The notes below the pieces were generated by a model, which saw only the letters and a list, made by a program, of their open reading frames with translations, was not told the DNA's origin and searched no databases. A program made the position numbers and the translations under genes. A stretch of 64,000 bases of DNA, from positions 1 to 64,000 of the forward strand of contig JAVYQJ010000004.1 of assembly GCA_038731975.1 (NCBI GenBank). Reading direction: 5' to 3'. This document shows positions 14,946-56,679 of the stretch, piece by piece. Position 1 is the first letter of the stretch, and the number at the start of each line of letters is the position of its first letter. The stretch comes from Thermofilaceae archaeon (GTDB lineage Archaea > Thermoproteota > Thermoprotei > Thermofilales > Thermofilaceae).

Positions 14946-16163
14946 TTAGCCCTGCCTACTCGAGCTCTCCCCGAAGGCCTTGAGGAACTGCTCCCGCGCC
15001 TCCCTAAGGCTTACGCCCTTCCGCCTCGAGTACCGCTCGAGGTCGGCCGCCTCTGGTTTCACCCTAACGATCCTCCCCTCCCCGTCGTACGCGATCTTCG
15101 CTCGCACGCGCTCCCCTGAGACCTCGACTTCAACGGTTTCGCGCCTGAGCTTCAACCTGTCGACCACGGTCCAGCGGACGCCCAGCGTGCCGAGCTCCAT
15201 CATCATGAGCTGTGCCAGCTCTCGGGCTCGAGCGGGCTCCGCTAGCACCTGCACTATGAACGCGGGTCTCCCCTTCTTCCCCACCGCTGGGATCGTGTAA
15301 ACGTCCAAAGCCCCCCTCTCCATCAGGAGGTCCCTCGCGTAGGCGAGGAGCTCTCCGTCCACGTCATCAACGTTCGTCTCCAGCACGGCGACCCTATCGC
15401 GAAGCTCGCCGCCGGTCAGCTTCACCTCGTAGGCGATCAGGGGTTGAACCCCGTAATCCCTCGACCCCGCCCCGTAGCCAACTCTCGCAACCTCGAGCAC
15501 CGGCGTTTCAGCCAGAAACTCGTCGGCTAGCGCGGCGAGCACCGCAACCCCGGTTGGCGTCGCCAGCTCCCCCTCCACGGGCCCAAGCCGGAAGGGAATC
15601 CCCCTTAGCCTCAGGATCTCCCTCGTAGCAGGTGCCGGTGATGAGACGAGCCCGTGCGCCGTCCTAACGGGGCCGCCGCCGACCGCTACGGGTGTAGCCA
15701 TCACCCTGCACCCCGCCAACCCTAGACTCTCGATTAGGAGCGGGGCTGCAACAACGTCGAACAGGGTGTCAGCAGAAGCCAGCTCGTGGAGGTGCACCCC
15801 ACCGCCACCGTGCACGGCCGCCTCAGCCTCCTCCATGAGCTTGAGAGCCGCCCGAGCTCTCTCGTAGACGTAGTCTGAGAGGTTGAGAGTCGAGCGGAGC
15901 CTTTCGAGAGCAACGTAGAAGTCTGGGAACCCCCTTTCCGCTTCGGTCTCATCGATCCTCAGATCCAGCCTGACGGCCCGAACTCCAGCCCTTTCCACTC
16001 TCTCGAGCGAGACTTTGAAGCCGCGCACCCCATCAAGGACGGAGGGTAGCGCGGAGGCCAGCTCGTGTAGCCGGTTTACGTCAGCCCCCATGTCCAGCAA
16101 GGCGGCGGTGAGCATGTCGCCTGAAACGCCGGAGACCGATGCGTCAATCAGGAGCGCTCGCAT
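14946..16163 (-). CDS. larC: LarC, nickel insertion protein for the nickel-pincer cofactor
   Basis: The 405-residue protein starts LLIDASVSGVSGDMLTAALLDMGA, the hallmark of LarC (formerly DUF111), and contains EAEAAVHGGGGVHLHELAS, ELATPTGVAVLAALAD and TNVDDVDGELLAY. LarC is a CTP-dependent nickel insertase that finishes the cofactor of lactate racemase LarA. In Lactiplantibacillus plantarum LarC is made from two frames by programmed frameshifting; here it is one continuous frame. It diverges from larB with a 50-base shared promoter. LarA is not in the window. Confidence 0.93.
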   Translation of the reverse strand: MRALLIDASVSGVSGDMLTAALLDMGADVNRLHELASALPSVLDGVRGFKVSLERVERAGVRAVRLDLRIDETEAERGFPDFYVALERLRSTLNLSDYVYERARAALKLMEEAEAAVHGGGGVHLHELASADTLFDVVAAPLLIESLGLAGCRVMATPVAVGGGPVRTAHGLVSSPAPATREILRLRGIPFRLGPVEGELATPTGVAVLAALADEFLAETPVLEVARVGYGAGSRDYGVQPLIAYEVKLTGGELRDRVAVLETNVDDVDGELLAYARDLLMERGALDVYTIPAVGKKGRPAFIVQVLAEPARARELAQLMMMELGTLGVRWTVVDRLKLRRETVEVEVSGERVRAKIAYDGEGRIVRVKPEAADLERYSRRKGVSLREAREQFLKAFGESSSRQG

Positions 16164-16213
16164 CCCTCGTCTACCGAAGCGATACTTATCAGCCTTTCCC
16201 CCCGAAGCCCCTT
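16164..16213. promoter_or_regulatory. shared larC/larB divergent promoter
   Basis: Only 50 bases separate the two start codons. A TATA-like gatacttatc (16180-16189) is about 26-30 bases upstream of larB ATG 16214 and, read in reverse (gataagtatc), about 20-25 bases upstream of the larC start. One box could serve both directions, giving balanced expression of the cofactor genes. Confidence 0.5.
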
Positions 16214-17014
16214 ATGAGTGTCAGGGAGGTTTTGGAGGCGGTAGCGAGAGGTTCGATCAGCGTGGAGGAGGCTGAGAGGAGGCTCCGCCTGCTCACCCTG
16301 GAGATCGTTGGGGACTACGCGAGGCTGGACGTGGGTAGGGAGCTGCGGAGGGGGGTTCCTGAAATCGTGCTAGGCGACGTGAAGAGGGTGGGCGAGTTAG
16401 TCGAGATCATCAGGAGGAAGCTACCAGCCGCAGGCAGAGTGATCGTGAGCAGGGTTGGTAGGAGGAAGGTTGAAGCCATCATCGGGGAGTTGAAGCCGGC
16501 TAGCTACAGGTACGAGGAGAGGGCCAGAATCCTCGTCGTGTACGGAGAGGGCTTCCAGCCGCGCAAGACGGGTGGGCGTGTGGCGGTGTTGAGCGGCGGG
16601 ACCGCCGACATACCCGTCGCTGAGGAGGCCAGGGTCATAGCGGAGGAAATGGGCTGCGAAGTCAGGTGCTGGTACGACGTGGGCGTCGCGGCGCTGCACA
16701 GGGCTATCCAAGCGGTCAGGGAGGCGCTGGAGTGGGGGGCTGACGCCATGATCGTCGCCGCGGGCCGGGAGGCGGCTCTCGCCTCCGTGGTGGCGAGCCT
16801 AGCCGACGTGCCCGTCGTGGGACTGCCAGTGTCCGTGGGATACGGCTTCGCTGGCCAAGGGTTGAGCGCTCTCGCCTCCATGCTCCAGTCCTGCCCCCTC
16901 GGCCTAGCCGTTGTGAACATCGACGCTGGGGTGGCAGCCGGGGTTTTCGCAGCCATGGTGGCTAACGCAGTGGCGAGAGCTAGGGCGGCAGGGAGTAAAG
17001 GTGGTGGCTCGTGA
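16214..17014 (+). CDS. larB: LarB, NAD(+) analogue carboxylase/hydrolase (pincer cofactor synthesis)
   Basis: This 266-residue protein has an N-terminal helical region and a PurE-like C-terminal domain: AVLSGGTADIPVAEEA (residues 125-139), EVRCWYDVGVAALHRA, AAGREAALASVVASLADVPVVGLP and SVGYGFAGQGLSALASM. Cys227 in LQSCPLG corresponds to the active-site cysteine of L. plantarum LarB, which carboxylates nicotinic acid adenine dinucleotide and cleaves its phosphoanhydride. ATG 16214 is chosen because it follows the TATA box and removes a non-homologous N-terminal extension. It overlaps larE by four bases (GTGA). Confidence 0.93.
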   Translation: MSVREVLEAVARGSISVEEAERRLRLLTLEIVGDYARLDVGRELRRGVPEIVLGDVKRVGELVEIIRRKLPAAGRVIVSRVGRRKVEAIIGELKPASYRYEERARILVVYGEGFQPRKTGGRVAVLSGGTADIPVAEEARVIAEEMGCEVRCWYDVGVAALHRAIQAVREALEWGADAMIVAAGREAALASVVASLADVPVVGLPVSVGYGFAGQGLSALASMLQSCPLGLAVVNIDAGVAAGVFAAMVANAVARARAAGSKGGGS

Positions 17015-17859
17015 CCTCCCCGGGGAGTCAACCCAATAAGCTCGAGAGGCTGATCGAGTGGTTCAAGGAGCTGGGCGGCCCCGTTGTGGTAGCCTTCTCC
17101 GGAGGCGTGGACAGCAGCCTGGTTCTGAAGGCCGCTGCTGAGGCTCTCGGCCCCTCCCAGGTGTACGCGGTGACGGTTGAAAGCCCTCTCCACCCGGCTT
17201 CAGAAATCAGGGTTGCGAGGGAGGTGGCCTCGCGACTGGGGGTCAACCACGTAGTCGTACGGGGTGACGAGCTCGAGGACGACAATGTCGTGAGCAACCC
17301 GCCCAACCGCTGCTACTACTGCAAGAAGAGGATCGTCGCTAAGATGAAGGAGGTGGCTGCCCGGGTCGGGGCGGTGGCGATTGTCGACGGTACCAACGCG
17401 GAGGACTTGATGGGCCACAGGCCGGGCCTCAAAGCGCTGAGGGAGGAGGGTGTGAGGAGCCCGCTCCTCGAGCTCGGTTTCACGAAGAGCGAAGTCCGAG
17501 CCGCAGCCAGAGCCCTGGGTCTACCGAACTGGGATAAGCCGTCGGCAGCCTGCCTGGCGTCCAGGATCCCCTACGGCGTGAGGATCACCGTGGATAAGCT
17601 CTCCAGGATCGAGAGGGCTGAGGAGCTGGTGAGAGCCATCACGGGCGCGCGGGTCGTCAGGGTGAGGGATCACGGCGATGTAGCGAGGATCGAGGTGGGG
17701 AGGGAGGAGAGGAAGCTCCTCTTCTCCGAGGAAATCATGGACGCGCTGGCGCGCGAGCTCAAAAACCTCGGCTGGAGGTACGTCGCTCTAGACCTGGAGG
17801 GCTACAGGACGGGCAGTCTGGATGAAGTGCTGGAGAGAGCGGCTGCGCCAGAAGCCTAA
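17011..17859 (+). CDS. larE: LarE, sulfur transferase for the nickel-pincer cofactor
   Basis: The 282-residue PP-loop ATPase carries VVVAFSGGVDSSLVLKA (SGGVDS at residues 30-35), which activates the substrate carboxylate by adenylation. It has three cysteines in the positions expected for an iron-sulfur-cluster LarE: Cys101 and Cys104 in NRCYYCKKR, and Cys181 in SAACLASRIPYG. L. plantarum LarE has only the last cysteine and sacrifices its sulfur; the three-cysteine type binds a [4Fe-4S] cluster and can act catalytically. Overlap with larB indicates one operon. Confidence 0.93.
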   Translation: MTSPGSQPNKLERLIEWFKELGGPVVVAFSGGVDSSLVLKAAAEALGPSQVYAVTVESPLHPASEIRVAREVASRLGVNHVVVRGDELEDDNVVSNPPNRCYYCKKRIVAKMKEVAARVGAVAIVDGTNAEDLMGHRPGLKALREEGVRSPLLELGFTKSEVRAAARALGLPNWDKPSAACLASRIPYGVRITVDKLSRIERAEELVRAITGARVVRVRDHGDVARIEVGREERKLLFSEEIMDALARELKNLGWRYVALDLEGYRTGSLDEVLERAAAPEA

Positions 17860-19935: not shown

Positions 19936-21078
19936 TTATGGGCTTGCCCTTAGAATGGCGCCATTCTTGACGGTTTGCACCTGCACAATGGATGCTAAAA
20001 CCGCGTTGTGGATCAACCTTCTAGCCCTCTGTATGCACTGGTTCTCCCTAGTCGGGTGCACGCGGTTGGTCAGCAGAACGATGAAGATGCCGAGCTCCGG
20101 GTCGATCCAGAGGGATGTCCCTGTGAAACCCGTGTGGCCGTACGCTCTGGGTGACATCAAGTCGCCGCAGCTGCAGGGCCTGCAGTTGAGAGCCCAACCG
20201 AGGCCGCGGCACTCGTTGAGGCCCTGCGTGTGGTTTCTCGTGGCGAGCTCCACAGTTAACGGGCTTAGAACCCTCACACCGTTGAAGGAGCCCTTGTTGA
20301 GCCACATCTGCGCGTAGACGGCTAGGTCGGCCGCTGTGGAGAAGAGGCCCGCGTGGCCAGCCACGCCCCCCATGAACCAGGCGTTCTCGTCGTGAACTTC
20401 ACCCTTCAGAACCCTACCCCTCAGCCTGCAGAACTCCGTCGCAACGGCCCGCTCCTTGAGATCCCCCTCTGGGTTGAAGGTTGTCTCACGCATCCCTAAA
20501 GGCTTGAGCACCAGCTCGCTAACCACCCTGTCTAGGCTCTCTCCCGTCACCATCTCGATTATGCGGCCGAGCAGGATGAAGCCCAGGTCGCTGTAGACAA
20601 CCTTTGAGCCGGGCTCGTACTCAAGGTTCACGCTGGCAACATAGCTGTAGACCTCCTCCCTCCTCGACAGGAGGGAGTAGAGGGGGAGGTGGGCCGGTAA
20701 GCCTGAAGTGTGCGTGAGCAGGTGCCAAACCCTCACTCGGGCCTTCGAGCCGCTACTGAAGGCTGGGAAGTACGTGGAAACCGGGTCGTCGAGGCTCAGC
20801 TCACCCCTCTCCACGAGCCTTAAGACGACCGGCGTTGTGGCGACAACCTTCGTCAAGCTGGCTAGATCGAAGACCGCGTCTGTAGTCATGGGGCGCTTCT
20901 CGGGGAATAACTGGGAGTACCCGTAGGCCCTACGCAAGACCACCCTACCGCTCCTCGCCACGAGCAGGACGGCACCGGGGAAGCAGCCGGCCTCAACCAG
21001 GCGCGTTAGAAGGTGATCGACCGTGGCCAGCCTCTCAGGGTCGAAGCCGTGCTCCTCGGGCCTACCGCTGGGGAGCAT
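19936..21078 (-). CDS. serine hydrolase of the beta-lactamase/AmiE (YbbE) type
   Basis: The 380-residue protein has the Ser-x-x-Lys motif in FDLASLTKVVATTP (Ser74, Lys77), Tyr162 in VVYSDLGF and the late HTGFTGTSLWIDPELG and LLTNRVHPTREN segments. These last motifs are characteristic of the AmiE/YbbE subgroup that sits in the Bacillus subtilis murQ-namZ operon and acts on muropeptides. No signal peptide or membrane anchor is seen, so it should be cytoplasmic. It diverges from the kinase-murQ-namZ genes. Its last few residues lie against the AT-rich island and may have been altered. An esterase role is the alternative. Confidence 0.85.
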   Translation of the reverse strand: MLPSGRPEEHGFDPERLATVDHLLTRLVEAGCFPGAVLLVARSGRVVLRRAYGYSQLFPEKRPMTTDAVFDLASLTKVVATTPVVLRLVERGELSLDDPVSTYFPAFSSGSKARVRVWHLLTHTSGLPAHLPLYSLLSRREEVYSYVASVNLEYEPGSKVVYSDLGFILLGRIIEMVTGESLDRVVSELVLKPLGMRETTFNPEGDLKERAVATEFCRLRGRVLKGEVHDENAWFMGGVAGHAGLFSTAADLAVYAQMWLNKGSFNGVRVLSPLTVELATRNHTQGLNECRGLGWALNCRPCSCGDLMSPRAYGHTGFTGTSLWIDPELGIFIVLLTNRVHPTRENQCIQRARRLIHNAVLASIVQVQTVKNGAILRASP

Positions 21079-21124
21079 GGTGGAGCCACGTTAAAGAGAA
21101 TAATAACCCTTGCTCGTTGCCGCT

Positions 21125-22087
21125 GTGGGGGAGAGGCGCCTAATAGTGGCTGTGGACGGTGGGGGCAGCGGGTCGAGAGCCCTCCTTTTCGGCTGCGATG
21201 GGAGCGTGCTCTCCCTGCACAAGGGGCCCCCGTTGAACTACGCGGTCCTGGGGCCTACAGCCTTCACCGCGAACCTGGGGTTGCTGCTGAGACCCGTTTC
21301 TGAGTTTTCCGGCGCGATCGAAGGGTACGTCTTCAGCCTAGCGGGGGTATCGGCGTACAGGGGGGAGGTTGAGCAGCTGCTGCGAAGGGAGCTCGGCGTG
21401 GAGCGCGTCTGGCTTCTCACGGACGTTGAAGCGGCGTACATGGCCGCTGCTCGCGGGCGGGATGCCATCGTGGTTTCAGCTGGAACCGGCTCCTTCGCCT
21501 ACGGGAGGAGGGCTGGCAGGGAGGCGAGGGTTGGTGGCTGGGGCTACCTGTTCGGTGACGAGGGGAGCGCCTACTGGATCGGTAGGGAGTTCGTCCGCAG
21601 GTGCTTGATGCACTACGACGGCAGGCTGGCGGAGGGTGAGCTCTCCCTAAAGCTCCTCCTGGAGGAACTCCACGCACCCAACGTCAGGGACGCTCTGGCG
21701 AAGCTGTACAGGGAGTACACGTCCCCCAGCAGGGTTGCGGAGCTGGCGAAGGTTGCTTGCAAGGCTGCTGAGATGGGGTGCCCGATGGCTCTCGACCTGA
21801 TCGGGGACGCTGCCCGGCTGCTGGAGCAGATGGTTTCAGCGGTTGCTGAGCAGTTGGGCTTCACGGGGGAGGTAGACGTCTACGGGACCGGAGGGGTGAT
21901 CATCGGCTGCAAGCCTCTTGCGGAGGCCTTGAGGCGCGAGGTTGAGTCGAAGCCGGGGAGGAGGTTCCACGTGAGGCCCGCACCACCCCTGCTCGGCTGC
22001 GTCCTGCACTACCTCCACTCTGTCAAGGGTCTTGGCGTGGACGAATTGGAAAAGGTGAACCTTGAAATACCAACTGAGGATTACTGA
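21125..22087 (+). CDS. BadF/NagK-type amino-sugar kinase (GlcNAc/MurNAc kinase candidate)
   Basis: This ASKHA-fold kinase shows phosphate-1 VAVDGGGSGSRALLFGCDG, LLTDVEAAYMAAA, phosphate-2 IVVSAGTGSFAYGRR, GGWGYLFGDEGSAYWIGRE and the adenosine stretch DVYGTGGVIIG. Relatives phosphorylate GlcNAc (NagK) or both MurNAc and GlcNAc (MurK of Clostridium). Given murQ directly downstream, phosphorylation of MurNAc at O6 is the most economical role. GTG 21125 is preferred because it leaves six residues before the first strand; TTG 21110 is an alternative. The 3' end overlaps murQ by 26 bases. Confidence 0.87.
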   Translation: MGERRLIVAVDGGGSGSRALLFGCDGSVLSLHKGPPLNYAVLGPTAFTANLGLLLRPVSEFSGAIEGYVFSLAGVSAYRGEVEQLLRRELGVERVWLLTDVEAAYMAAARGRDAIVVSAGTGSFAYGRRAGREARVGGWGYLFGDEGSAYWIGREFVRRCLMHYDGRLAEGELSLKLLLEELHAPNVRDALAKLYREYTSPSRVAELAKVACKAAEMGCPMALDLIGDAARLLEQMVSAVAEQLGFTGEVDVYGTGGVIIGCKPLAEALRREVESKPGRRFHVRPAPPLLGCVLHYLHSVKGLGVDELEKVNLEIPTEDY

Positions 22088-23027
22088 TCGCGTGGGCGAG
22101 GGGACTTTCGAGCTGCTCGCGCGCCTCGAGACGGAGCAGAGGAACCCTATCAGCGAGAGGCTCAGCGAGCTGCCGACGATAGAGATCCTTAGGATCATCA
22201 ACGAGGAGGACAAGAAGGTCGCCTACGCGGTGGAGCGCGCGCTACCCGAGATCGCCAAGCTCGTCGATACGATCCTGGAGGCGATCAGGAGCGGGGGGCG
22301 CTGGATCTACGTGGGGGCTGGGACGAGCGGGAGGCTCGCGGCAATCGATGTGGCTGAGCTCCTCTCCACCTACAACGTGGGGCCGGAGACCGTCGAAGCT
22401 CTCGTGGCGGGCGGCCCTGGAGCAATGGTGAGGCCGATTGAGGGGGCGGAGGACGATGAGGAAATGGCGGTGAGAGAGCTGAAAGCTAGGAGGATACGCG
22501 AGGGGGACGTCGTGGTCGGCATCAGCGCGAGCGGGCGGACCCCCTACGTTGTGTCAGCGCTCCGCTACGCGAAGAGCGTCGGGGCGAAAACGGCGATTAT
22601 CACGAGCGTCGAGAACTCCCCCGCTTGCGAGTACGCCGACATAAAGATCGTCCTGAGGACGGGGCCGGAGGTGGTGACGGGCTCAACTCGTATGAAGGCG
22701 GGTACCGCGCAGAAGATGGTTCTAACGATGATCAGCACGGCTGTCATGGTGAGGTTGGGGAAGGTTCACGGGAACCTGATGATCTCCCTGCAGCCGGTCA
22801 GCGGGAAGCTCAGGGAGAGAGCGAAGAGGATACTCATGATGGAGGCCGGAATCGATTACCGGAGCGCCTCAGAGATTCTGGAGAAGGCCAACTACAACTT
22901 GCCGGCCGCCATCGTCATGGCGGTAGCGGGCGTCAGCTACGAGGAGGCTTTGCGCTACCTCGAGCGGGCGAACTACATCCCCGTGAAAGCGATAGAGCTG
23001 GCGAAGGGTGGTCGCGTTGAGGGTTAG
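22062..23027 (+). CDS. murQ: MurQ, N-acetylmuramic acid 6-phosphate etherase
   Basis: The 321-residue SIS-domain protein has the family signature RLETEQRNPISERL at residues 21-34, VGAGTSGRLAAIDVAEL (84-100), GGPGAMVRPIEGAEDDEE, VVGISASGRTPYVVSAL and TGSTRMKAGTAQKMVL. The glutamates in DVAE (Glu99) and IEGAED (Glu127) match those assigned to acid/base catalysis in bacterial MurQ. The enzyme splits MurNAc-6-phosphate into GlcNAc-6-phosphate and D-lactate. The start is TTG 22062 inside the kinase gene; its end overlaps namZ by 20 bases, so three genes form one coupled operon. MurQ is unexpected in an archaeon without murein. Confidence 0.95.
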   Translation: MKYQLRITDRVGEGTFELLARLETEQRNPISERLSELPTIEILRIINEEDKKVAYAVERALPEIAKLVDTILEAIRSGGRWIYVGAGTSGRLAAIDVAELLSTYNVGPETVEALVAGGPGAMVRPIEGAEDDEEMAVRELKARRIREGDVVVGISASGRTPYVVSALRYAKSVGAKTAIITSVENSPACEYADIKIVLRTGPEVVTGSTRMKAGTAQKMVLTMISTAVMVRLGKVHGNLMISLQPVSGKLRERAKRILMMEAGIDYRSASEILEKANYNLPAAIVMAVAGVSYEEALRYLERANYIPVKAIELAKGGRVEG

Positions 23028-24228
23028 GTTGGGCTTGGAAAGCCCGGAGCTGGGGAAGCTCCTGGCAGGCAAGAAACTGGGTATCGCCACCAACCACACG
23101 GGGGTTACCCCCGAGATGAGGCACATAATCGAGATTGCAGGTGAGCACGGGGAGGTTGAGGTGGTTTTCACTCCCGAGCACGGGTTGTGGGGTTCAGCTG
23201 CAGCCGGCGAGCTTGTCTCATCGAGGGTGGATGAGGAGTACGGCGTGAGGGTCTGCAGCCTCTACGGAGAGACCCTGGAGCCACCCACCGAGGAGCTGCA
23301 GAAGCTGGACCTCGTCGTGTACGACATCCAGGATCTAGGGCTCCGCTGGTACACCTACGCATCAACGCTCTACTACACCGTTAAAGCGTGCGCTAAAGCG
23401 GGCACTCCCCTGCTGGTCCTCGACAGACCGGCTCCACTGACGGGGGCAGTGACGGAAGGGCCGGTCCTCGATCCCACCTACAAATCCTTCACCGGGTTGG
23501 CTAGAATCCCAGCCCGCTACGCGTTAACCCCAGGCGAGCTAGCCCTCTACTACTCGAGAGTTGAGGGGCTGGGTGGTGAAGTTCACGTTGCCAGGATGGC
23601 GGGTTGGAGGAGGGAGATGTGGTTCGATGAGACAGGGCTCCCCTGGGTTCCCCCTTCACCCAACATCCCGAACCTTGAGGCAGCTCTCGTCTACGCTGGA
23701 GCCTGCCTACTCGAGGGTACGAACCTGTCCGAGGGTAGGGGGACCGCTTCGCCCTTCCTCCAGTTTGGGGCACCCTGGATCCGGGCGAGGAGGCTCGCTC
23801 AAGCTCTCAACGAGCTGAGGCTGCCCGGGGTAATCTTCCGCCCCGTCAAGTTCGTCCCTACAGCGAGCAAGTACAGGGGGCAGGAGTGCGGGGGCGCCTA
23901 CGTGCACGTTACCGATCGGTCGGTTTTCAGGCCCTTCGTGACCTTCATCGAGGTTCTTAAGACCGTGAAGCGCCTCTACGGGGACCGCTTCCACCTCATG
24001 AGTAGGGAGCACGAGCAGCAGGTAGAGTACTTGAAGGACTACACAGGCTGGTCGAGCGGGGCCAGTCGGTACGCTATCGATTACCTCGCCGGTACCTCGA
24101 GGGTCCGCGAGTGCATCGAGGGGTTGAGGGGCGTGGAGGAGGCTGAGGAGGAGTGGAGGAGGGAAAGAAACGAGTTCATCGAGAAGGCGCAAAGCGTCCT
24201 CCTGTACGAAGGGGGGCTAAGGCCTTAG
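23008..24228 (+). CDS. namZ: NamZ-type exo-beta-N-acetylmuramidase (DUF1343, GH171)
   Basis: The 406-residue protein has every visible block of DUF1343: LGIATNHTGVTPEMRH, VVFTPEHGLWG (residues 52-62), VVYDIQDLGLRWYTYASTLY (103-122), VLDRPAPLTG, and LLEGTNLSEGRGTASPFLQF. B. subtilis NamZ (YbbC) removes MurNAc from the non-reducing ends of peptidoglycan fragments. No signal peptide is present, so imported fragments would be the substrate. It starts GTG 23008 inside murQ and overlaps the convergent PIG-L gene by four bases. Confidence 0.93.
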   Translation: MVALRVRLGLESPELGKLLAGKKLGIATNHTGVTPEMRHIIEIAGEHGEVEVVFTPEHGLWGSAAAGELVSSRVDEEYGVRVCSLYGETLEPPTEELQKLDLVVYDIQDLGLRWYTYASTLYYTVKACAKAGTPLLVLDRPAPLTGAVTEGPVLDPTYKSFTGLARIPARYALTPGELALYYSRVEGLGGEVHVARMAGWRREMWFDETGLPWVPPSPNIPNLEAALVYAGACLLEGTNLSEGRGTASPFLQFGAPWIRARRLAQALNELRLPGVIFRPVKFVPTASKYRGQECGGAYVHVTDRSVFRPFVTFIEVLKTVKRLYGDRFHLMSREHEQQVEYLKDYTGWSSGASRYAIDYLAGTSRVRECIEGLRGVEEAEEEWRRERNEFIEKAQSVLLYEGGLRP

Positions 24229-24911
24229 AGCTCTCTAAGCGTCTGCCTCAGCTGCTCGCTCGGCGCCATGAGGGCTTGGGCGTACCTGAACCCCGACTCG
24301 ATCCCCCTGATCCTGAAGAGGCAGCTGTAGTACTCGATGTAGGGGAAGCCGGTCTCCCCCCTGGCGAAGGCGTAGGCGCTCGCCGCCTCCCTCCACACTT
24401 CGAAGGTCTCACCGATGTCGACGTACACGTTCGGCCGGTAGCCTCGAGGATCCTCCCAGTTCTCAGCGAAGAAGAGCCTTCGAACCCGGTGGGCAGGCCT
24501 CTCCCTCTTAACCGCTGGTAGCGCAGCGTAGAAGAGCGCGTCCAGGACGTTCCTGTACGTGTTCGCATGATCCCTGTGGATGCTCCCCCGCCAGTGCGTG
24601 ATCAGGATCTCGGGCCTGTACTCCCTGATCAAGTCGCAGAGCCTAAGCTTCACCTCCCTGCTCACGGGCAGCTCCCCATCCCTGTAGGGGAGGAAGACGG
24701 CTTCAGCCCCCAGGATTCTGGCCGCGTTTTCCGCTTCCCTACGCTTTTGCTCACCGTACTCCTCCTCGGAGAGCGTGGGGTGCCCTTTCTCGCCCAGCGT
24801 CATGTGAACGATTACGACCCTATGACCGGAGCGGGTCAGCTTCGCGATTAAGCCGCCGCACGTGACCTCAGCGTCGCCGGCGTGGGCTCCGACAACCATC
24901 AACTTGACCAC
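24225..24911 (-). CDS. PIG-L/LmbE-family N-deacetylase
   Basis: The 228-residue protein has the metal-binding segment VVGAHAGDAEVTCGGL, a known variant of A-H-P-D-D-x-E in which Pro-Asp is Ala-Gly, and the second motif ITHWRGSIHRDHANTYRNV. Other matches are MTLGEKGHPTLSEEEYGE and FLPYRDGELPVS. Such enzymes deacetylate GlcNAc-type sugars with zinc. It forms an operon with the upstream GNAT gene (one base between stop and start) and converges on namZ, so a deacetylase step on amino sugars from cell-wall breakdown is plausible but not shown. Confidence 0.87.
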   Translation of the reverse strand: MVKLMVVGAHAGDAEVTCGGLIAKLTRSGHRVVIVHMTLGEKGHPTLSEEEYGEQKRREAENAARILGAEAVFLPYRDGELPVSREVKLRLCDLIREYRPEILITHWRGSIHRDHANTYRNVLDALFYAALPAVKRERPAHRVRRLFFAENWEDPRGYRPNVYVDIGETFEVWREAASAYAFARGETGFPYIEYYSCLFRIRGIESGFRYAQALMAPSEQLRQTLREL

Positions 24912-24912
24912 G

Positions 24913-25869
24913 TTAGATCACCCTCCTCATGATGAAGTACCTGCGCGTCACTTTAAACCCGAAGCGCGAGTACAAGCGCGCCGCTTGCTCGTCAGTCCAG
25001 AGGACGAAGGCGTTGTGAATACCCCTACGCCTCATCTCCCAGAGGCAGCGCGCCAGCAGCACCGTGCCGATCCCCTTACCACGCATATCCTCCCTCACGC
25101 CGAAAGGCCCGAAGTGCGCTCCAGGCTTGTGCCAGTGGTAATCCTCGCTATGCCAGTACTGGCAGTAGCCGACAACTTCATCCCCCTTCACCGCTACCAG
25201 GATCTGCCCTTTCTCGCAGCCGCTCTGGAGGAGCTCGAGAGCGTGCCTGTACCAGTCGGCCGGGAAGCTCCTCTCCAGGAACCTGAGGAGCGGGTAGATG
25301 TCCCTCGTCTCGAGGGGCCGAACCTCAACCCCCTCACCCTCCAGCTTCTTCTCCAGCTCCTCGACCTCGGCGGGCAGCGTATAGTCGGGCCACAGCTGGG
25401 CATCCATGCTGAGAGCTTCATACAGCCTTACGAATCCGTGCCTCTCAAGCAGCTCCAGCAGCCACGCGTACCTGTCTGGGTCGACACCCGGAAAGAAGTA
25501 GTTCGGAGTGTAAGGCGAGAACAAAACCTCGCTTCGCCCCTTCCCCTTGAAGTACTCGAGCGAGGCCTCCATCAGCGCTCCTCCCGCCTCAGGGAACTCC
25601 GGATCGTAAGCGAGAGCCGTTATCCACCCTCGGCGCTCCTCTAAACCCTGGTAGAAGAGGGGATACCTTCGAAGGATGCATAAACTGAAGCCCACGATTC
25701 TACCACCGCTGACTGCGAGCTTCAACCCTTCACCGTCGAAGTTTGGATCTAGGAGAACCTTCCTCTCAAAGATGGAGATCGAGATTGGATCGTACCTGAG
25801 CCACCTATTCCACAAACGCACGAGATCATCCTCAACGCAAGGCCTGTAGGTAGAAATTTCGATCGCCAC
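24913..25869 (-). CDS. GNAT-family acetyltransferase, probably with two GNAT modules
   Basis: This 318-residue protein is about twice the size of a single GNAT domain. The C-terminal half has the acetyl-CoA-binding segment FGVREDMRGKGIGTVLLARCLWEM (containing the R/Q-x-x-G-x-G/A loop) and the final FVLWTDEQAARLYSRFGFKV. The N-terminal half has a weaker repeat, including KLAVSGGRIVGFSLCIL and YDPEFPEAGGALMEASLEYF. It is the first gene of the operon with the PIG-L deacetylase. An acetyl acceptor such as an amino sugar or peptide cannot be determined. Confidence 0.83.
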   Translation of the reverse strand: MAIEISTYRPCVEDDLVRLWNRWLRYDPISISIFERKVLLDPNFDGEGLKLAVSGGRIVGFSLCILRRYPLFYQGLEERRGWITALAYDPEFPEAGGALMEASLEYFKGKGRSEVLFSPYTPNYFFPGVDPDRYAWLLELLERHGFVRLYEALSMDAQLWPDYTLPAEVEELEKKLEGEGVEVRPLETRDIYPLLRFLERSFPADWYRHALELLQSGCEKGQILVAVKGDEVVGYCQYWHSEDYHWHKPGAHFGPFGVREDMRGKGIGTVLLARCLWEMRRRGIHNAFVLWTDEQAARLYSRFGFKVTRRYFIMRRVI

Positions 25870-26080: not shown

Positions 26081-27562
26081 ATGAAGAGCCCCGTTTTTGG
26101 GGTAACAATGATACTGGATGAGCGCAAGCACGTCTACCCGCACTACTACGATAAGTGCCTCGAGATGGTCCACTACTGGAGGTCGTTCATCGAGTCGATC
26201 AAGTTCCAGGATGGAACGTCACCTAGGGCTGTGGCCTCATCCGAGCTCATCACTTCGGTTGATTCCGCCAGAAGGGTTGGCGAAGAGTTCCTGGAGAAGA
26301 AGGTCCGCGCGGTGATCCTCAACTTCCACGTGTGGAACTTCCCCTACCTTGTCTGGCCCTTCATCAACACCGTGGGTAAGGATAAGCCGATCCTCTGCCT
26401 CTCGAACAATGAGGGCGCTTACCCCGGTAACGTCGGGCTGCTGGCCACAAGTGGCGCGTTGAGGCAGGCCGGCTTGACGGTCCACAGGATCATCGGCGAC
26501 CCCGGGGACCCGAAGGTGAAGGAGAAGGTGAGGAAGTGGGTGATGGCTGCCACCGCTGCGGTCAACCTGAGGAACGAAGTGTACGGAATGTACGGTGGCC
26601 ACTCGATGGGGATGGAGACCGGGTACTTCCACCTCGTCCCCATCCAGCGGTACTTCGGCACGACGGTCTACCAGATTGATCAGCTTTTGATCGTCGAGAA
26701 GATGAGGGAGATCCCCGACGAGGAGGTTGAGAAGGGGGTTAAGTGGCTGGAGGAGAACGTGGGGAGGATCGAGTACGATGGGAAAATGCTCACGAGGGAG
26801 ACTTTGGCCAAGCAGGTAAGGCTCTACCTGGCGGTCAAAAGGCTCAACGAGGAGTACGGCTTCGACTTCTGCGGGATTAAGGGTCAGAGGGAGCTTTCGG
26901 AGCACGTCGTGATCCCCGATGTAGCAGAGATGCTCCTCAACGACCCGTACGACTGGAACGGCCCTAAAGAGCCAACCGTCTGCGCGACAGAGGCAGACTC
27001 TCTTGGCGCCTTGACCATGCAGGTTCTGAAGTACGTCAGCGGCGGGCTGCCCGTGCTCTTCATGGACGTTAGGCTCTACCACCCCGACCTCGGCATCTGG
27101 GACTTCTGCAACTCCGGCGTGCACGCGAGCTGGTACGCAGCCAGGAGCTACAACCCGAGGGAGAACCTGAGGAAGGTGACGCTGTACCCGGCTCTCGAGC
27201 TCTACTTCAAGGCTGGGGGCGCCTCCGTTTCCTTCGACGCTGCACCAGGCGAGCTCACTTTCGCGCGGCTCGGCCTCTACAGGGATCAACTGTACATGGT
27301 GATTGTGAAGGGTGAAGCCGTCGAGCTAGACGAGGAGACTAGGAGGAGGATAAACGCGCAGACGAACCCAACATGGCCCCACGTTCACGCCAGGTTGAAC
27401 TGCTCCTACGAGGAGTTCATCGAGTTCTTCCCCGCTAACCACATCCACGCTGTAGCGGGCGATAGAGTCGAAGAGCTCCTGCTATTCTGCGAGCTCACAG
27501 GGGTAAAACCCATCCTGCTGGGAACAGGAAGGTACAGATCGTTCCAGGAAGCTTTTCAGTAA
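26081..27562 (+). CDS. L-fucose/L-arabinose isomerase-family protein
   Basis: The 493-residue protein follows the fucose-isomerase fold. Conserved points include LNFHVWNFPYLVWPFINTVG, CLSNNEGAYPGNVGLLATSG, YGMYGGHSMGMETGY, then the presumed metal ligands in CATEADSLGALTMQVL (Glu) and VLFMDVRLYHPD (Asp), and FFPANHIHAVAGD (His) near the C-terminus, as in FucI. It should interconvert an aldose and ketose, but side-chain changes prevent naming the sugar. ATG 26081 follows a TATA-like gtatattat (26045-26053). A second, shorter paralogue lies at 32.7 kb. Confidence 0.85.
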   Translation: MKSPVFGVTMILDERKHVYPHYYDKCLEMVHYWRSFIESIKFQDGTSPRAVASSELITSVDSARRVGEEFLEKKVRAVILNFHVWNFPYLVWPFINTVGKDKPILCLSNNEGAYPGNVGLLATSGALRQAGLTVHRIIGDPGDPKVKEKVRKWVMAATAAVNLRNEVYGMYGGHSMGMETGYFHLVPIQRYFGTTVYQIDQLLIVEKMREIPDEEVEKGVKWLEENVGRIEYDGKMLTRETLAKQVRLYLAVKRLNEEYGFDFCGIKGQRELSEHVVIPDVAEMLLNDPYDWNGPKEPTVCATEADSLGALTMQVLKYVSGGLPVLFMDVRLYHPDLGIWDFCNSGVHASWYAARSYNPRENLRKVTLYPALELYFKAGGASVSFDAAPGELTFARLGLYRDQLYMVIVKGEAVELDEETRRRINAQTNPTWPHVHARLNCSYEEFIEFFPANHIHAVAGDRVEELLLFCELTGVKPILLGTGRYRSFQEAFQ

Positions 27563-28432: not shown

Positions 28433-30670
28433 GTGGAGATCCTCCATCAGGCAGCGAAGGCAGGCGACGTTGACCACGTGAGAACCCTCCTCGAGCGCGG
28501 ATGGAGCGTGAACGCGAGGGATTTGAAGGGATGGACGCCGCTGCACTACGCAGCAGTCTTTGGACACGTAGAGGTTGCGAAGCTCCTCATCAAGTACGGG
28601 GCTGATGTCAACGCTAGGGATCGAAAAGGGCTTACGCCTTTGTACTACGCGGTCAAGGAAGGGAGTTTCAATGTTGCTGAGCTTCTCCTCCAGCAGGGCG
28701 CGGACCCCAGAGTCAAGGATAAGAGGGGGTGGACTCCGATCCATTACGGCGCGAAGAAGGCAAAGCTGCGGGTCGATCAGATTCTCGCGGGGGAGCCGCC
28801 CCCGCTTAGGATCGTCAGACTGCTGCTGGAGAGTGGTTCTGACCCTAACGCTCAAACGCGCGAGGGGCTCACGCCGCTGCACATCGCGGTCCGCCGCAGC
28901 AATGTCGCATTGGCTAAGCTGCTCCTCGATGCTGGTGCTAGCCCGAACATGCCCGACAAGAAGGGTTGGACGCCTCTGCACTACGCTTACCGCTACGGTG
29001 ACGAGGAGCTCATCGAGCTGCTACTGAAATACGGTGCAAACACGGGTGTAAGGGACAAGAAGGGTAGGACTCCGCCGATGCTGCGCAACACCCGCCCCAT
29101 CCTTAGGCGCGGGGCCAAGCCGATGAGTTTGAGCGGGATCCTCGCCAGGGAGGCGACGTACAGATCCAGGAAGGAAAGGGGGGAAATCCCAATCCGGGGT
29201 ATCGACCTCTTTGCTCTGGCCTGGACGGTATTCTTGTTCTTCCTGTCCCTCCTATTTGGGGTCATTTTCGCCTACTTCATCTATGACGGTTACTTGGAGT
29301 TGATCACCTCCATCTTTTTCCTTTTCACGCTATCCATGCTGCCCGGGCTCGCGCAAATGGCTCTGAACACGCACGTGATCATCGCCGACAAGCTGATAGA
29401 TCCGCTACTCCACCTACCCGTCAGTTGGGGGACCCTCCGTTGGGCACTAGTCAAGCAGGCCTTCATATGGGGAGGCTTCTCGCCCCTTTTCGCCTTCATC
29501 CCAGCGGCAATCGTGTACTTGACCATTCGAAAGAGCCCCGCTGTACCCCTAGGGCTTGCGCTAACCGGGATCTTTGCGACACTCTTGGCGGTTTCGCTAG
29601 GATACTTGATCGGCTCTTACGTCAGCAAATACACGAGGAGCCTGCTAAGGAGGATCGTATCTACTGTGGTATGGGTCCTGATCCTGGGGTTAGGCTACAT
29701 CTTCGACCTGTTAAACAAATTCTTCTATAAAGCTGTTTTGCCACTTGATAGCGCCCTGATGAGTATGATTCCTCCCTTCTGCTTCCTACATGTGACGCGT
29801 AACGCGCTTTCACTCACCGTGTCCGCCGCACTGCTTGCTGCATCCGTGTGGCTGACCCGCTTCTCCGTGCGCAGGTTCGTGAGGGCGGCGACAGTGGCAG
29901 AGATCTACGCGCCCCCGCTCGCTCCTCCGTGGAGGGTAAGCGCGAGGGCTCTGATGCCCACGCTTAAGGAGCTGAAGATGGTTGCTAGAGCACCGAGGAT
30001 GATGGCGTTGATCATCACCCAAGCCTTGCTACCCTCGCTACTCCTGATTTACTGGATTCTGACCGTGCTGAGACAAATGCTCACCTGGTGGTTCGAACCC
30101 TCTCTATCAAACGCCGCCACAATGGTGATCATGATGATGTTGGTATCGATAGGGATCTTTCAGGCTCTCCAGGGCGTCTACATCATGTTCGTCGCCGAGG
30201 CGGCGAACGCTAGGACGCTATACCTGCTCCCGTTGACGAGGTTGAACGTTGCGCTATCGAAATCCCTCGCCCTACTACTCATGTGCCTCCCGTTCATCGT
30301 GGCAGCCTCAGCGGTTGCCGCGATATTCCTGAACGCTTCAGCGGGGTTGGTTTACGCGGCGGCCACAGTCGGCTCAGTATTGCTGGGCGGCTTGATCCTC
30401 GCAATGTGGGCTCCGCGGGAGCCCTCAGACTGGAGCCGAGAGACCTACAGCCAACTCAAACTCATCGTGGCGTGGCTCGCTCTGCTTACCCCTCTCATAG
30501 TTTTGTTATCGCTTCCCCTGCTACCCCTGCTGCTCCCGATGTATCCCAAGCTGTGCGAGATCGTGCAGTTCCTCTTTGACCATGGACACTTCTTCCTGCT
30601 AGCCTACCTTGTAGCGCTGTACGTGAGTGGCACGCTAGTGGCGGTGCTGATAAGCAGAGACCCAGTGTAG
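28433..30670 (+). CDS. ankyrin-repeat domain fused to an ABC-2-type membrane permease
   Basis: The first roughly 215 residues are at least six ankyrin repeats (GWTPLHYAAVFGHVEVAKLL, GLTPLYYAVKEGSFNVAELL, GLTPLHIAVRRSNVALAKLL, GWTPLHYAYRYGDEELIELL). After a basic linker (about 215-250), the rest contains about 12-14 hydrophobic segments, laid out like the large ABC exporter permeases with a mid-protein loop, RVSARALMPTLKELKMVAR. An ABC ATPase 1 kb downstream on the opposite strand is a likely partner. Ankyrin repeats are rare in archaea and the fusion is unusual: the cytosolic repeats may recruit or gate a partner protein. The start is GTG 28433 with TATA-like tttata at 28411-28416. Substrate and direction of transport are unknown. 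Confidence 0.8.
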   Translation: MEILHQAAKAGDVDHVRTLLERGWSVNARDLKGWTPLHYAAVFGHVEVAKLLIKYGADVNARDRKGLTPLYYAVKEGSFNVAELLLQQGADPRVKDKRGWTPIHYGAKKAKLRVDQILAGEPPPLRIVRLLLESGSDPNAQTREGLTPLHIAVRRSNVALAKLLLDAGASPNMPDKKGWTPLHYAYRYGDEELIELLLKYGANTGVRDKKGRTPPMLRNTRPILRRGAKPMSLSGILAREATYRSRKERGEIPIRGIDLFALAWTVFLFFLSLLFGVIFAYFIYDGYLELITSIFFLFTLSMLPGLAQMALNTHVIIADKLIDPLLHLPVSWGTLRWALVKQAFIWGGFSPLFAFIPAAIVYLTIRKSPAVPLGLALTGIFATLLAVSLGYLIGSYVSKYTRSLLRRIVSTVVWVLILGLGYIFDLLNKFFYKAVLPLDSALMSMIPPFCFLHVTRNALSLTVSAALLAASVWLTRFSVRRFVRAATVAEIYAPPLAPPWRVSARALMPTLKELKMVARAPRMMALIITQALLPSLLLIYWILTVLRQMLTWWFEPSLSNAATMVIMMMLVSIGIFQALQGVYIMFVAEAANARTLYLLPLTRLNVALSKSLALLLMCLPFIVAASAVAAIFLNASAGLVYAAATVGSVLLGGLILAMWAPREPSDWSRETYSQLKLIVAWLALLTPLIVLLSLPLLPLLLPMYPKLCEIVQFLFDHGHFFLLAYLVALYVSGTLVAVLISRDPV

Positions 30671-31788: not shown

Positions 31789-32550
31789 CTAGGCTTCTGT
31801 CCGAAGCTTCTTGAGGGCTTCGACTAGCTCCTTCAGCTCGCTAGAGAGGCCGGTCACTTCAAGGAAGTAGCTCTCTAGGTCCTTCTTGCCCTTCAAATCG
31901 GCGATCGGCCCCTTCGCCACGACCCTCCCCCTGTGCATGATCGTGACCTCGTCCGCCACGGCCTCTGCCAGCTCCATCACGTGGGTGGAGAAGATAACTG
32001 TCCCTCCACCCTCCGCCGCGCGCCTTAAGAAGGTCTTCAGGACGACGGCAACCTCGGGGTCGAGCCCGCTGAAGGGCTCGTCGAAGATGAGCACCTTTGG
32101 CATGTGAAGCAGGGCGCCGATGATTTGCACCTTCCTCTTGTTACCCAAGCTCAGTTCCCCGCAAAGCTTGCCCATGTGCTCCTCCAGCTTGAAGGCCTTC
32201 ACCAAAGCCTCCACACGCTCCTTAAGGACCAGCGTGGGTATCCGGTAGATATGCCCGAGAAAGCTGAACCACTCGGCTGGCGTAAGGCTCTCGTAGAGGA
32301 TCGGCTCCTCAGGCAGGTAGCCTACCACCCTTCTGGCTTCAATGGGGTTCAAGAGGGGGTTGACGCCGTTTAAGCTGACGTAACCGGCGTCAGGCTTCAC
32401 CAAGCCGACAGCTATCTTCATCAGCGTGGACTTGCCCGAGCCGTTGGGGCCGAGGAGCGCGTGAACCCTACCCGGCTCGAAATCAACGCTCACGTTGTCT
32501 AAAGCCACAACGCTCCCAAAAGCCTTAGAGACGCCCCGAAAGGTTAGCAC
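31789..32550 (-). CDS. ABC transporter ATP-binding protein
   Basis: This protein of about 253 residues has Walker A LLGPNGSGKSTLMKIAVG, Q-loop region VVGYLPEEPILYESLTPAEW, signature LSLGNKRKVQIIGAL (variant of LSGGQ), Walker B VLIFDEPFSGLDPE and the H-loop FSTHVMELAE. It belongs to the CcmA/NatA/ABC-2 exporter group. GTG 32550 is chosen over longer starts because a TATA-like ttatatttat on the reverse strand lies about 25 bases upstream and VLTFRGVSKAFGS is the usual family start. The only permease nearby is the ankyrin-fused one. Confidence 0.9.
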   Translation of the reverse strand: MLTFRGVSKAFGSVVALDNVSVDFEPGRVHALLGPNGSGKSTLMKIAVGLVKPDAGYVSLNGVNPLLNPIEARRVVGYLPEEPILYESLTPAEWFSFLGHIYRIPTLVLKERVEALVKAFKLEEHMGKLCGELSLGNKRKVQIIGALLHMPKVLIFDEPFSGLDPEVAVVLKTFLRRAAEGGGTVIFSTHVMELAEAVADEVTIMHRGRVVAKGPIADLKGKKDLESYFLEVTGLSSELKELVEALKKLRTEA

Positions 32551-32668
32551 GCAACATTCGAGAAAGAGGATAAATATAAGAGTTACCCACGCGAGAGAAG
32601 CCCCCTCCCAACTCATTGCTTACGAAGCCCCAGACAACGTTTTAGTACGGGAGGGGGAGGATCCCAGC
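32551..32668. promoter_or_regulatory. divergent promoter of ABC ATPase and second fucose-isomerase-family gene
   Basis: A central A/T-rich box (aggataaatataagag, about 32568-32583) can be read as a TATA element in both directions. Read in reverse it is correctly spaced for a leaderless ABC ATPase start at 32550. Read forward it would leave a leader of about 60 bases ending in a purine-rich gggagggggagg (32650-32660) about 8 bases before GTG 32669, a likely ribosome-binding site. Confidence 0.5.
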
Positions 32669-34066
32669 GTGACGAAAGTAAAGGTGGGGTTTGTCCCTCT
32701 CCACAGGGTACCCTTCGATGAGGAGTGGGCTCGCGAGCTGAAGCACCGCTTCATCGAGGCTGTGAGAGCCAGCTTCGGCGACATCGTGGAGCTTGTCTAC
32801 CCGGGCGAGGGTGATACGAAGCTGGGGCTGGTTTCAGACGACGATGACGCGGAGGCTGTGGCGGAGCTCTTCAAGCGGGAAGGGGTTGACGGCATCGTCA
32901 TCGCGGCGCTCACCTTCGGCGACGAGCTTGCTGGAGCGAGGGTTGCTGAGCTGCTGAGGAAGCCGGTGATGATCTACGCCACGAAGGAGCCTCCCCCGCT
33001 GCCCGGGGGCTTCCGCCGCTCAGACTCATTCTGCGGGACTCTCTCGCTGGCCTCAGCCCTCTACAGGAGGAAGATTCCGTTCGTCTTCGGCGGTATCGTC
33101 TACCCCGAGGATCCCGAGTTCAAGCGGAGCTTCGACTCGTTCGTTAGGGCCGTTAACGCCGTGAAGACCTTCGTCGGCGCTAAGGTGGGAGCCGTGGGCC
33201 CGAGGCCTGAGAGGTTTGAGACCGTCACGTTTAACGAGGCGGTGATGGCGGCGAAGTTCAGCCAGAGGGTTGTTCACTTCGACCTTATCGAGGTCGTGGA
33301 GGAGGCAAGGCGGCTGAGCGACAGCGACCCTAGGGTTGCTAAGACCGTCGGGGAGATCGAGGCTCAGCTGGACGTCAGCGGAGTCACCCGAGAAGCCCTC
33401 CTAAAGCTGGCGAAGCTTGAGGTCGTGTTGAGCGAGCTGGCGGAGAGGAGGAAGCTGGTCGGCATGGGGGTGCGCTGCTGGACCGAGCTGGAGCGCTACT
33501 TCGGCGTAACTCCCTGCCTCGTGATGGGTAGGCTGACCGATAGGGGCGTAATGATGGCATGCGAGGTCGATGTCTACGGCGTCCTGACGATGGCCCTCCA
33601 GTACGCCGCATCGCTGGGCAAAACGGTGCCCTTCTTCATCGATTGGACGATCAGGCACCCGACTAGGGACAACGTGTTCCTAGCCTGGCACTGCGGGAAC
33701 CTGCCGCCATCCCTCTGCAGCGGAGGTTGCAGGCTGAGCTTCCACGGCGTGATGCACAGAGCCCTCGGCGCCGAGCGCTGCTACGGGACGGTTGACGGGC
33801 GCGCCAAGCCCGGTGAAGTGACCATCAGCAGGCTCGTCGAGTACGATGGCGAGTTCAAGCTGTTCGTAACGAGAGGGAGGATAGTTGAAGAACCGGGAGA
33901 GTTTAGAGGTAGCTGGGCTTGGGTTGAGGTCCCCGACTTGGATAAGGTTTACACAACGCTGATTGAGGAAGGTTTCATCCACCATGCTTCGATGATCCAC
34001 GGCGACATCGTAGAGCCCCTAAAGATGGCCGCAAAGCTGCTCGACATAAAAGCCGTAGTCGTTTAG
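32669..34066 (+). CDS. fucose/arabinose isomerase-family protein, second copy
   Basis: The 465-residue protein has the family points GVDGIVIAALTFGDELAGA, KFSQRVVHFDLIEV, VRCWTELERYFGVTPCLVMG, the presumed metal ligands in MACEVDVYGVLTMAL (Glu) and VPFFIDWTIRHPT (Asp), VFLAWHCGNLPPSLC, and a late FIHHASMIHGD with His. It resembles the subgroup of distant FucI relatives found in sugar-degradation loci of archaea and Thermotogae. GTG 32669 is preferred because of the purine-rich ribosome-binding site; an open frame extends upstream but enters the divergent promoter. It differs from the copy at 26 kb enough to suggest a different sugar. Confidence 0.83.
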   Translation: MTKVKVGFVPLHRVPFDEEWARELKHRFIEAVRASFGDIVELVYPGEGDTKLGLVSDDDDAEAVAELFKREGVDGIVIAALTFGDELAGARVAELLRKPVMIYATKEPPPLPGGFRRSDSFCGTLSLASALYRRKIPFVFGGIVYPEDPEFKRSFDSFVRAVNAVKTFVGAKVGAVGPRPERFETVTFNEAVMAAKFSQRVVHFDLIEVVEEARRLSDSDPRVAKTVGEIEAQLDVSGVTREALLKLAKLEVVLSELAERRKLVGMGVRCWTELERYFGVTPCLVMGRLTDRGVMMACEVDVYGVLTMALQYAASLGKTVPFFIDWTIRHPTRDNVFLAWHCGNLPPSLCSGGCRLSFHGVMHRALGAERCYGTVDGRAKPGEVTISRLVEYDGEFKLFVTRGRIVEEPGEFRGSWAWVEVPDLDKVYTTLIEEGFIHHASMIHGDIVEPLKMAAKLLDIKAVVV

Positions 34067-56574: not shown

Positions 56575-56679
56575 GGGGCCGTAGTCTAGCTTGGTAGGAT
56601 GCCAGCCTGGGGGCGTACCCCGAGGTAGAGAGCGACAGAGCGCTGGTGATCCCGGGTTCAAGTCCCGGCGGCCCCACCA
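56575..56679 (+). tRNA. tRNA-Pro (anticodon GGG), intron-containing, CCA encoded
   Basis: The acceptor GGGGCCG (56575-56581) pairs with CGGCCCC (56669-56675), followed by A and an encoded CCA. The D arm is 56584-56600 and the anticodon stem CCAGC (56602-56606) pairs with GCTGG (56642-56646). The anticodon GGG is at 56609-56611. The T stem CCGGG/CCCGG flanks the TTCAAGT loop. A 28-base intron interrupts the anticodon loop one base after the anticodon. A TATA-like tttataac (56543-56550) lies about 28 bases upstream of the mature 5' end. Confidence 0.95.
56613..56640 (+). other. archaeal tRNA intron (28 nt) in tRNA-Pro
   Basis: Removing 56613-56640 restores a seven-base anticodon loop (CTGGGGC) closed by the CCAGC/GCTGG stem. 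Position 37/38 is the canonical site for archaeal introns removed by the splicing endonuclease. Exact bulge-helix-bulge pairing was not checked, so the boundaries may shift by a base or two. Confidence 0.8.

Follow-up and report, generated by a model that had tools for sequence, protein, structure and literature searches.

A predicted bacterial-type murein-sugar salvage gene cluster in a Thermofilaceae archaeon and other Thermoproteota

Why should a heat-loving archaeon without peptidoglycan carry genes for taking it apart? Peptidoglycan is a bacterial hallmark, and N-acetylmuramic acid (MurNAc) is the signature sugar of bacterial walls. The question is raised by a 64,000-nucleotide stretch of Thermofilaceae DNA (contig JAVYQJ010000004.1, positions 1 to 64,000; hereafter the window), in which a preliminary description recognized adjoining genes for an S12 hydrolase, a BadF-type sugar kinase, MurQ and NamZ and read them as a MurNAc salvage cassette. 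All four open reading frames (ORFs) were found where they had been placed (Table 1), and the reading itself is upheld at the genomic level: the MurQ glutamate pair is kept, many other archaea share the cassette, and in relatives it is joined by genes for AnmK (anhydro-MurNAc kinase), a NagZ-like glycosidase, LysA and an Opp-type importer. We consider it highly likely that these genes form a salvage system for murein sugars, bacterial in type, cytoplasmic and independent of the phosphotransferase system (PTS), that moved into the Thermoproteota long ago. Some archaea, then, probably feed on bacterial cell-wall debris.

The assignment of MurQ as a predicted MurNAc-6-phosphate (MurNAc-6-P) etherase is well supported. 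The Haemophilus influenzae MurQ structures (1nri/4lzj) match the window protein with an E value of 2e-74, ungapped over 285 residues, and alignment places E99 and E130 at the catalytic glutamates, which we take to be E83/E114 in the Escherichia coli enzyme and E89/E120 in that of H. influenzae. Both residues are thus retained; they are invariant in 21 archaeal sequences, and their 31-residue spacing is the same as in both bacterial enzymes. In one genome (G056; L079:12672-13614), MurQ is spread over two overlapping frames, reflecting either a broken gene or a sequencing error. The window NamZ has both its NamZ_N and NamZ_C domains above the respective cut-offs and is matched by the structures 4k05 and 4jja with E values of 4e-65 and 3e-51. 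A P-E57-H-G motif is common to archaeal and bacterial NamZ proteins, and D109, D139, E177 and E236 of the window protein are also conserved with the bacterial ones.

When a profile of 17 archaeal kinase sequences was compared with the PDB, Clostridium acetobutylicum MurK (8zo3) came first with 270 bits and the Sulfolobus tokodaii hexokinase second with 250, and a fold search with the predicted structure (pLDDT 92) found the two to be about equal matches. The protein has the BadF fold, with D105 as the catalytic aspartate. Room for the lactyl ether of MurNAc has been associated with the lack of Asn or His immediately before the catalytic Asp, of a bulky charged residue at 133-135, and of Asp at 69, all in Tannerella forsythia numbering (PMC10465942). 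The window kinase agrees in all three respects: T104 precedes D105, S81 replaces the Asp of the S. tokodaii hexokinase, and G142-G143-W144 is the same as in MurK. These residues permit MurNAc as a substrate without being sufficient as proof, and we predict a MurNAc (and N-acetylglucosamine, GlcNAc) 6-kinase; C. acetobutylicum MurK acts on both sugars (PMC5790795), and GlcNAc or glucose could serve the archaeal enzyme as alternative substrates. That a kinase stands in for the PTS, as the preliminary description had it, accords with MurK being the best PDB profile match, but such an arrangement is not new, being known from C. acetobutylicum and T. forsythia (PMC5790795). In one relative, a second BadF-type kinase fragment (L066:3-719) lies by the S12 gene, in addition to the kinase adjoining MurQ.

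The S12 protein had been called AmiE-like. It is indeed a relative of AmiE and PBP4B, but its best NCBIfam match, the PBP4B model PRK03642, scores 254 bits, below the cut-off of 385, and AmiE-like is as far as the assignment goes. Bacillus AmiE (L131), which is 39% identical to the window protein, matches the same model at 677 bits. The SxxK motif (S74, K77), Y162 and H315-T-G are conserved in eight archaeal homologues; in that of L070, the Tyr lies within a YSC context. The protein is predicted to be an amidase or peptidase stripping the stem peptide from muropeptides. By eye, neither it nor any other of the archaeal hydrolases has a signal peptide, in line with what had been described.

Table 1. 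Genes of the cluster in the window and the matches behind their assignment
Gene product	Position	Strand	Match
S12 hydrolase	19936..21078	(-)	PF00144, 266 bits
BadF/BcrAD sugar kinase	21110..22087	(+)	PF01869, 90 bits
MurQ, predicted MurNAc-6-phosphate etherase	22062..23027	(+)	TIGR00274 equivalog, 323 bits (cut-off 302)
NamZ, predicted exo-beta-N-acetylmuramidase (GH171)	23008..24228	(+)	NamZ_N (PF07075) 237 bits, NamZ_C (PF20732) 165 bits
PIG-L/LmbE-type protein, candidate deacetylase	24225..24911	(-)	PF02585, 108 bits
Tandem GNAT, GlmA-like, candidate glucosamine/glucosaminide N-acetyltransferase	24913..25869	(-)	profile and fold

The cassette does not end at position 24228, as had been thought. 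It continues past NamZ with PIG-L and GNAT genes on the opposite strand, the PIG-L ORF sharing four bases with the NamZ end and the GNAT ORF coming next, and both recur beside MurQ or NamZ in relatives. Overlaps of 20-26 bases had been described within the kinase-MurQ-NamZ operon. That between MurQ and NamZ is genuine (11-20 bases in the window, 29 in the congener G275), but the 26-base kinase/MurQ overlap is probably an artefact of start-codon choice: a GTG at 22092, four bases past the kinase stop, gives MurQ a start resembling that of its homologues, and in congeners the kinase and MurQ genes either overlap by 4 bases or lie 4 bases apart. MurQ more probably starts there than at 22062. Genomes from many families have these genes clustered in the same way, so their proximity is not due to chance.

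How widely the genes occur was determined by a survey of 398 genomes of the phylum (G, L and f numbers here are our own for genomes, loci and families). A match was counted as true MurQ if it scored above 160 bits and was either full or clearly truncated; the weak hits that SIS-domain proteins (GlmS, hexuloisomerases and others) gave with the MurQ model in most of 357 genomes were left out. NamZ was found in 30 genomes of 12 families and true MurQ in 28 genomes of 13 families. Both are present in 24 of the 34 genomes with either (Fisher test, 6e-29, the genomes not being independent draws), and in most of those 24 they are neighbours. AnmK occurs in 22 of the 398, one further weak match being left out, and it too co-occurs with NamZ (8e-20) and MurQ (1e-16). 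Of three congeners, each has kept NamZ, and MurQ is present in two. All six genes of Table 1 are together in five genomes (G000, which is that of the window, G200, G032, G040 and G056) and five of them in a further three (G006, G015 and G055); family f8 (G050, G093, G159, G248 and G359; L083-L087, L194-L198) has NamZ and AnmK without MurQ. Named archaea among the matches listed are Culexarchaeum nevadense and a Brockarchaeota metagenome-assembled genome (MAG). A Culexarchaeia lineage carries the cluster at L099, whose contig is apparently identical to that of L082, and the description of the Culexarchaeia does not mention muramic acid. A phosphoglycerate-kinase-like gene lies near or directly by kinase-MurQ in families f29, f36 and f37 (L074, L093, L097, L080 and L081).

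Obviously, gene families that are all bacterial by origin, in a draft of 87 contigs, might have come from assembly contamination or a very recent transfer from a bacterium. The conservation of the cluster refutes this, and contamination is excluded. The same genes occur in the three congeners and in many archaeal families, including one cluster carried by a contig of 1.08 Mb (G062) and a NamZ gene on a single contig of 2,077,567 bases (G050); MurQ and NamZ fall into archaeal clades of their own; and in GC content and codon use the six genes are like those around them. The window belongs to a 125.6-kb contig of a 1.85-Mb assembly that is 95% complete, with an estimated contamination of 0.16%. 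A tRNA match at 56575-56676, which at 102 bases is longer than an intron-less tRNA, fits an archaeal contig.

The trees of MurQ and NamZ, which had been suggested as a check, also bear on where the cluster came from. Among 25 archaeal and 52 bacterial MurQ sequences, the archaeal ones formed two groups, one of 18 (support 98) and one of seven (support 90); a single archaeal clade was neither shown nor rejected (approximately unbiased test, p 0.54). The NamZ tree repeats the split, with families f19 and f29 on one side and all others on the other, and the matching splits suggest that the genes moved jointly. A bacterial donor is likely, given that clusters with this set of genes, PIG-L and GNAT among them, exist in bacteria; the fullest, L140, comprises MurQ, kinase, AnmK, GNAT, PIG-L, GH3 and NamZ. 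The divergence of archaeal MurQ, which is 45-84% identical to the window protein, suggests that the transfer is old.

The clusters of relatives indicate what the substrate might be. AnmK is encoded in L066 and L080 (474 and 460 bits, cut-off 387), and in L080 a NagZ-like GH3 protein adjoins NamZ, at 205 bits just under the beta-N-acetylhexosaminidase cut-off of 207. Diaminopimelate (DAP) decarboxylase, LysA, adjoins NamZ in L064, L065 and L066 (445, 330 and 391 bits, cut-off 298), and genes for an Opp-type binding protein and permeases come next in L065 and in L066, the latter having ATPase genes as well. Since anhydro-MurNAc (the sugar of AnmK) and meso-DAP (that of the decarboxylase LysA) both point there, peptidoglycan is the predicted substrate; LysA alone would not indicate it, as that enzyme also serves lysine synthesis. 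MurB was not found in the window's genome; the organism therefore seems unable to make MurNAc, which must come from outside. Self-recycling, with a lactyl-ether or similar sugar made by the archaeon itself as the substrate, for example in S-layer glycans, is unlikely on this account, the more so as AnmK and DAP decarboxylase by an Opp importer in relatives fit both peptidoglycan and import. Archaeal surface glycans are, to be sure, diverse and poorly known, and a similar argument was made by Borisova et al., who observed MupG-like proteins in archaea and took their function to be a different one (PMC6262408).

What happens to the GlcNAc-6-phosphate (GlcNAc-6-P) that MurQ would release is less readily accounted for. 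NagA, NagB and a GlmS/GlmD-type SIS protein were not found in the window's genome, a 95% complete draft whose three SIS proteins are a hexuloisomerase, MurQ and a PGI/PMI protein. The fate of GlcNAc-6-P is thus unexplained, as is the source of glucosamine-6-phosphate, and PIG-L is therefore the best candidate for deacetylating GlcNAc-6-P. We regard it as a candidate deacetylase of this or a related amino sugar, a suggestion weakened by the 5% of the genome that is missing. The solved structures nearest to the PIG-L protein are LmbE-like 2ixd, BshB1 and diacetylchitobiose deacetylases. Its gene adjoins NamZ in families f1, f19 and f21 and in the bacterial clusters L136, L140 and L144. In each of eight such proteins from archaeal and bacterial clusters, among them those of the window, L071, L075, L078, L136, L140 and L144, the motif is H-x-G-D and not H-x-D-D; the metal ligands remain in H-x-G-D, and the usual base is lost.

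The GNAT gene adjoins PIG-L in the same three archaeal families and in L140. In a profile comparison with the PDB, C. acetobutylicum glucosamine N-acetyltransferase (5kga/5kf1) was the best match (E 5e-23), followed by the GNAT region of a fungal GH3 GlcNAcase (4zm6); the fold search gave the same top matches (E 4.5e-22, TM 0.75) and a tandem GNAT fold. Of two residues mutated in the solved enzyme, Y297 is conserved as Y300 and D287 is replaced by Leu, and because of the latter we class the protein as a GlmA-like candidate only. The resemblance of GNAT to a glucosamine acetyltransferase, of PIG-L to archaeal diacetylchitobiose deacetylases, and of the kinase to broad hexokinases and GlcNAc kinases might together suggest general catabolism of amino sugars (GlcNAc or chitin oligomers), with MurQ and NamZ having drifted to other substrates. 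However, the only known MurQ reaction needs a lactyl ether and the active site is intact; AnmK co-occurs with the cluster, and NagA and NagB were not found. We judge such a pathway very unlikely.

Several observations nonetheless weigh against salvage of murein sugars. The S. tokodaii hexokinase matches the kinase nearly as well as MurK does, PIG-L is without its usual general-base Asp, the position of D287 in the C. acetobutylicum acetyltransferase is occupied by Leu in GNAT, and NagA, NagB and the GlmS/GlmD-type protein are missing as described. AnmK was not found in the window's genome, and the GH3 proteins of that genome are long and, by eye, BglX-like; anhydro-MurNAc is thus not usable by the known route in this organism. 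The window's cassette does not include an importer gene. Finally, genes resembling LarC, LarB and LarE (PF01969, PF00731/AIRC, Asn_synthase-like), which would serve to make the cofactor of lactate racemase, lie at 14946-17859, 2 kb from the cassette; they were considered as a link to D-lactate and rejected because their nearness to the cassette is not conserved in relatives.

The sequences themselves show the gene content, the protein families, the retained catalytic residues of MurQ, and a cluster that is conserved and inherited jointly. In the salvage pathway that we favor, four enzyme steps rest on family membership and we infer the remainder, including substrates, import, the order of steps and nutritional purpose. 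Wall fragments shed by bacteria would enter the cell, probably through an Opp-type ATP-binding cassette importer (in relatives, only gene neighbours); the window's genome has five SBP_bac_5 matches outside the cassette. The S12 hydrolase would trim the stem peptide, NamZ would free MurNAc from the non-reducing end, the kinase would convert it to MurNAc-6-P, and MurQ would cleave the latter, yielding GlcNAc-6-P plus D-lactate. PIG-L and the GlmA-like GNAT may then adjust the N-acetylation of the amino sugars, which would be used in carbon metabolism or join the amino sugars of the cell itself, and D-lactate might be oxidised by a GlcD-type flavin adenine dinucleotide oxidase, encoded on the window's contig, or racemised by a LarA-type protein, encoded elsewhere in the genome (G000:C8). 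Growth on bacterial wall debris would be the outcome.

Other genes in the vicinity include one for a DUF6785 membrane protein, possibly a transporter (window 36210-38153), and membrane proteins that resemble it by eye are encoded near the cassettes of L070 (1-1530) and L075 (2434-4293). Two L-fucose-isomerase-like proteins (window 26081-27562 and 32495-34066) are encoded near the cassette and are not conserved with it. A 745-aa ORF (28433-30670) appears by eye to be an unusual fusion of N-terminal ankyrin-like repeats with a C-terminal half rich in membrane helices.

The reactions of MurNAc salvage are established in bacteria (PMC5061867, PMC5790795). In archaea, Pab87 of Pyrococcus trims muropeptides, and debris eating has been proposed (PMC2651629). 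A 2025 study described archaeal peptidoglycan hydrolases together with enrichment of Opp-MppA importers; it left scavenging open and asked whether bacteria are a resource and whether scavenging drove acquisition of the hydrolases (PMC12352652). We found no report on MurQ, AnmK, NamZ or MurNAc catabolism in archaea, subscription journals being mostly outside the search. The pathway is known from bacteria; its archaeal version is new and extends it to another domain of life. An intracellular route that is conserved and has a MurNAc-specific etherase as its last step would supply the missing downstream half of the question of peptidoglycan-eating archaea, and it names organisms and enzymes for testing. 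It would also mean that carbon and nitrogen pass from bacteria to archaea in hot springs, and would provide heat-stable murein enzymes. More tentatively, several thermophilic archaeal lineages may live partly on bacterial wall debris as an amino-sugar source, with the PIG-L/GNAT pair forming in the window's organism a new route for wall-derived GlcNAc-6-P into its own glycans or central metabolism; we see this combined proposal as possible rather than probable.

Among known systems, MurT-MurK-MurQ of T. forsythia (PMC5790795) also uses external MurNAc without a PTS, in an organism unable to produce the sugar, and has a BadF-type kinase adjoining MurQ; it differs in that T. forsythia is a peptidoglycan-bearing bacterium, uses MurNAc for its own wall and imports it by the sodium symporter MurT, and its kinase is only distantly similar. 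C. acetobutylicum provides the best solved matches to the kinase and GNAT profiles, MurK (8zo3) and glucosamine N-acetyltransferase (5kf1), but these are bacterial proteins only ~26% and ~20% identical, respectively, to the archaeal ones, the latter with the D287 difference given above. Bacillus subtilis likewise has MurQ, the AmiE-like S12 protein and NamZ in one cluster, murQ-murR-murP-amiE-nagZ-namZ (PMC5061867); the PTS transporter MurP and the regulator MurR are not in the archaeal cluster, and the Bacillus hydrolases act extracellularly, whereas the archaeal ones are without visible signal peptides. Closest in gene content are the bacterial clusters L140 (a Clostridiales MAG), L144 (Pseudoflavonifractor), L136 (Spirochaetales) and L130 (Anaerolineae), in which MurQ, kinase and NamZ are accompanied by PIG-L and/or GNAT, AnmK, GH3 or S12; their hosts are bacteria, and their MurQ is 46-49% identical to that of the window. 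Pab87 of Pyrococcus abyssi (PMC2651629) and the archaeal peptidoglycan hydrolases (PMC12352652) show that archaea act on bacterial muropeptides and walls, and for them, too, debris eating has been proposed; those enzymes attack only the peptide or the intact wall, and MurNAc catabolism was not described.

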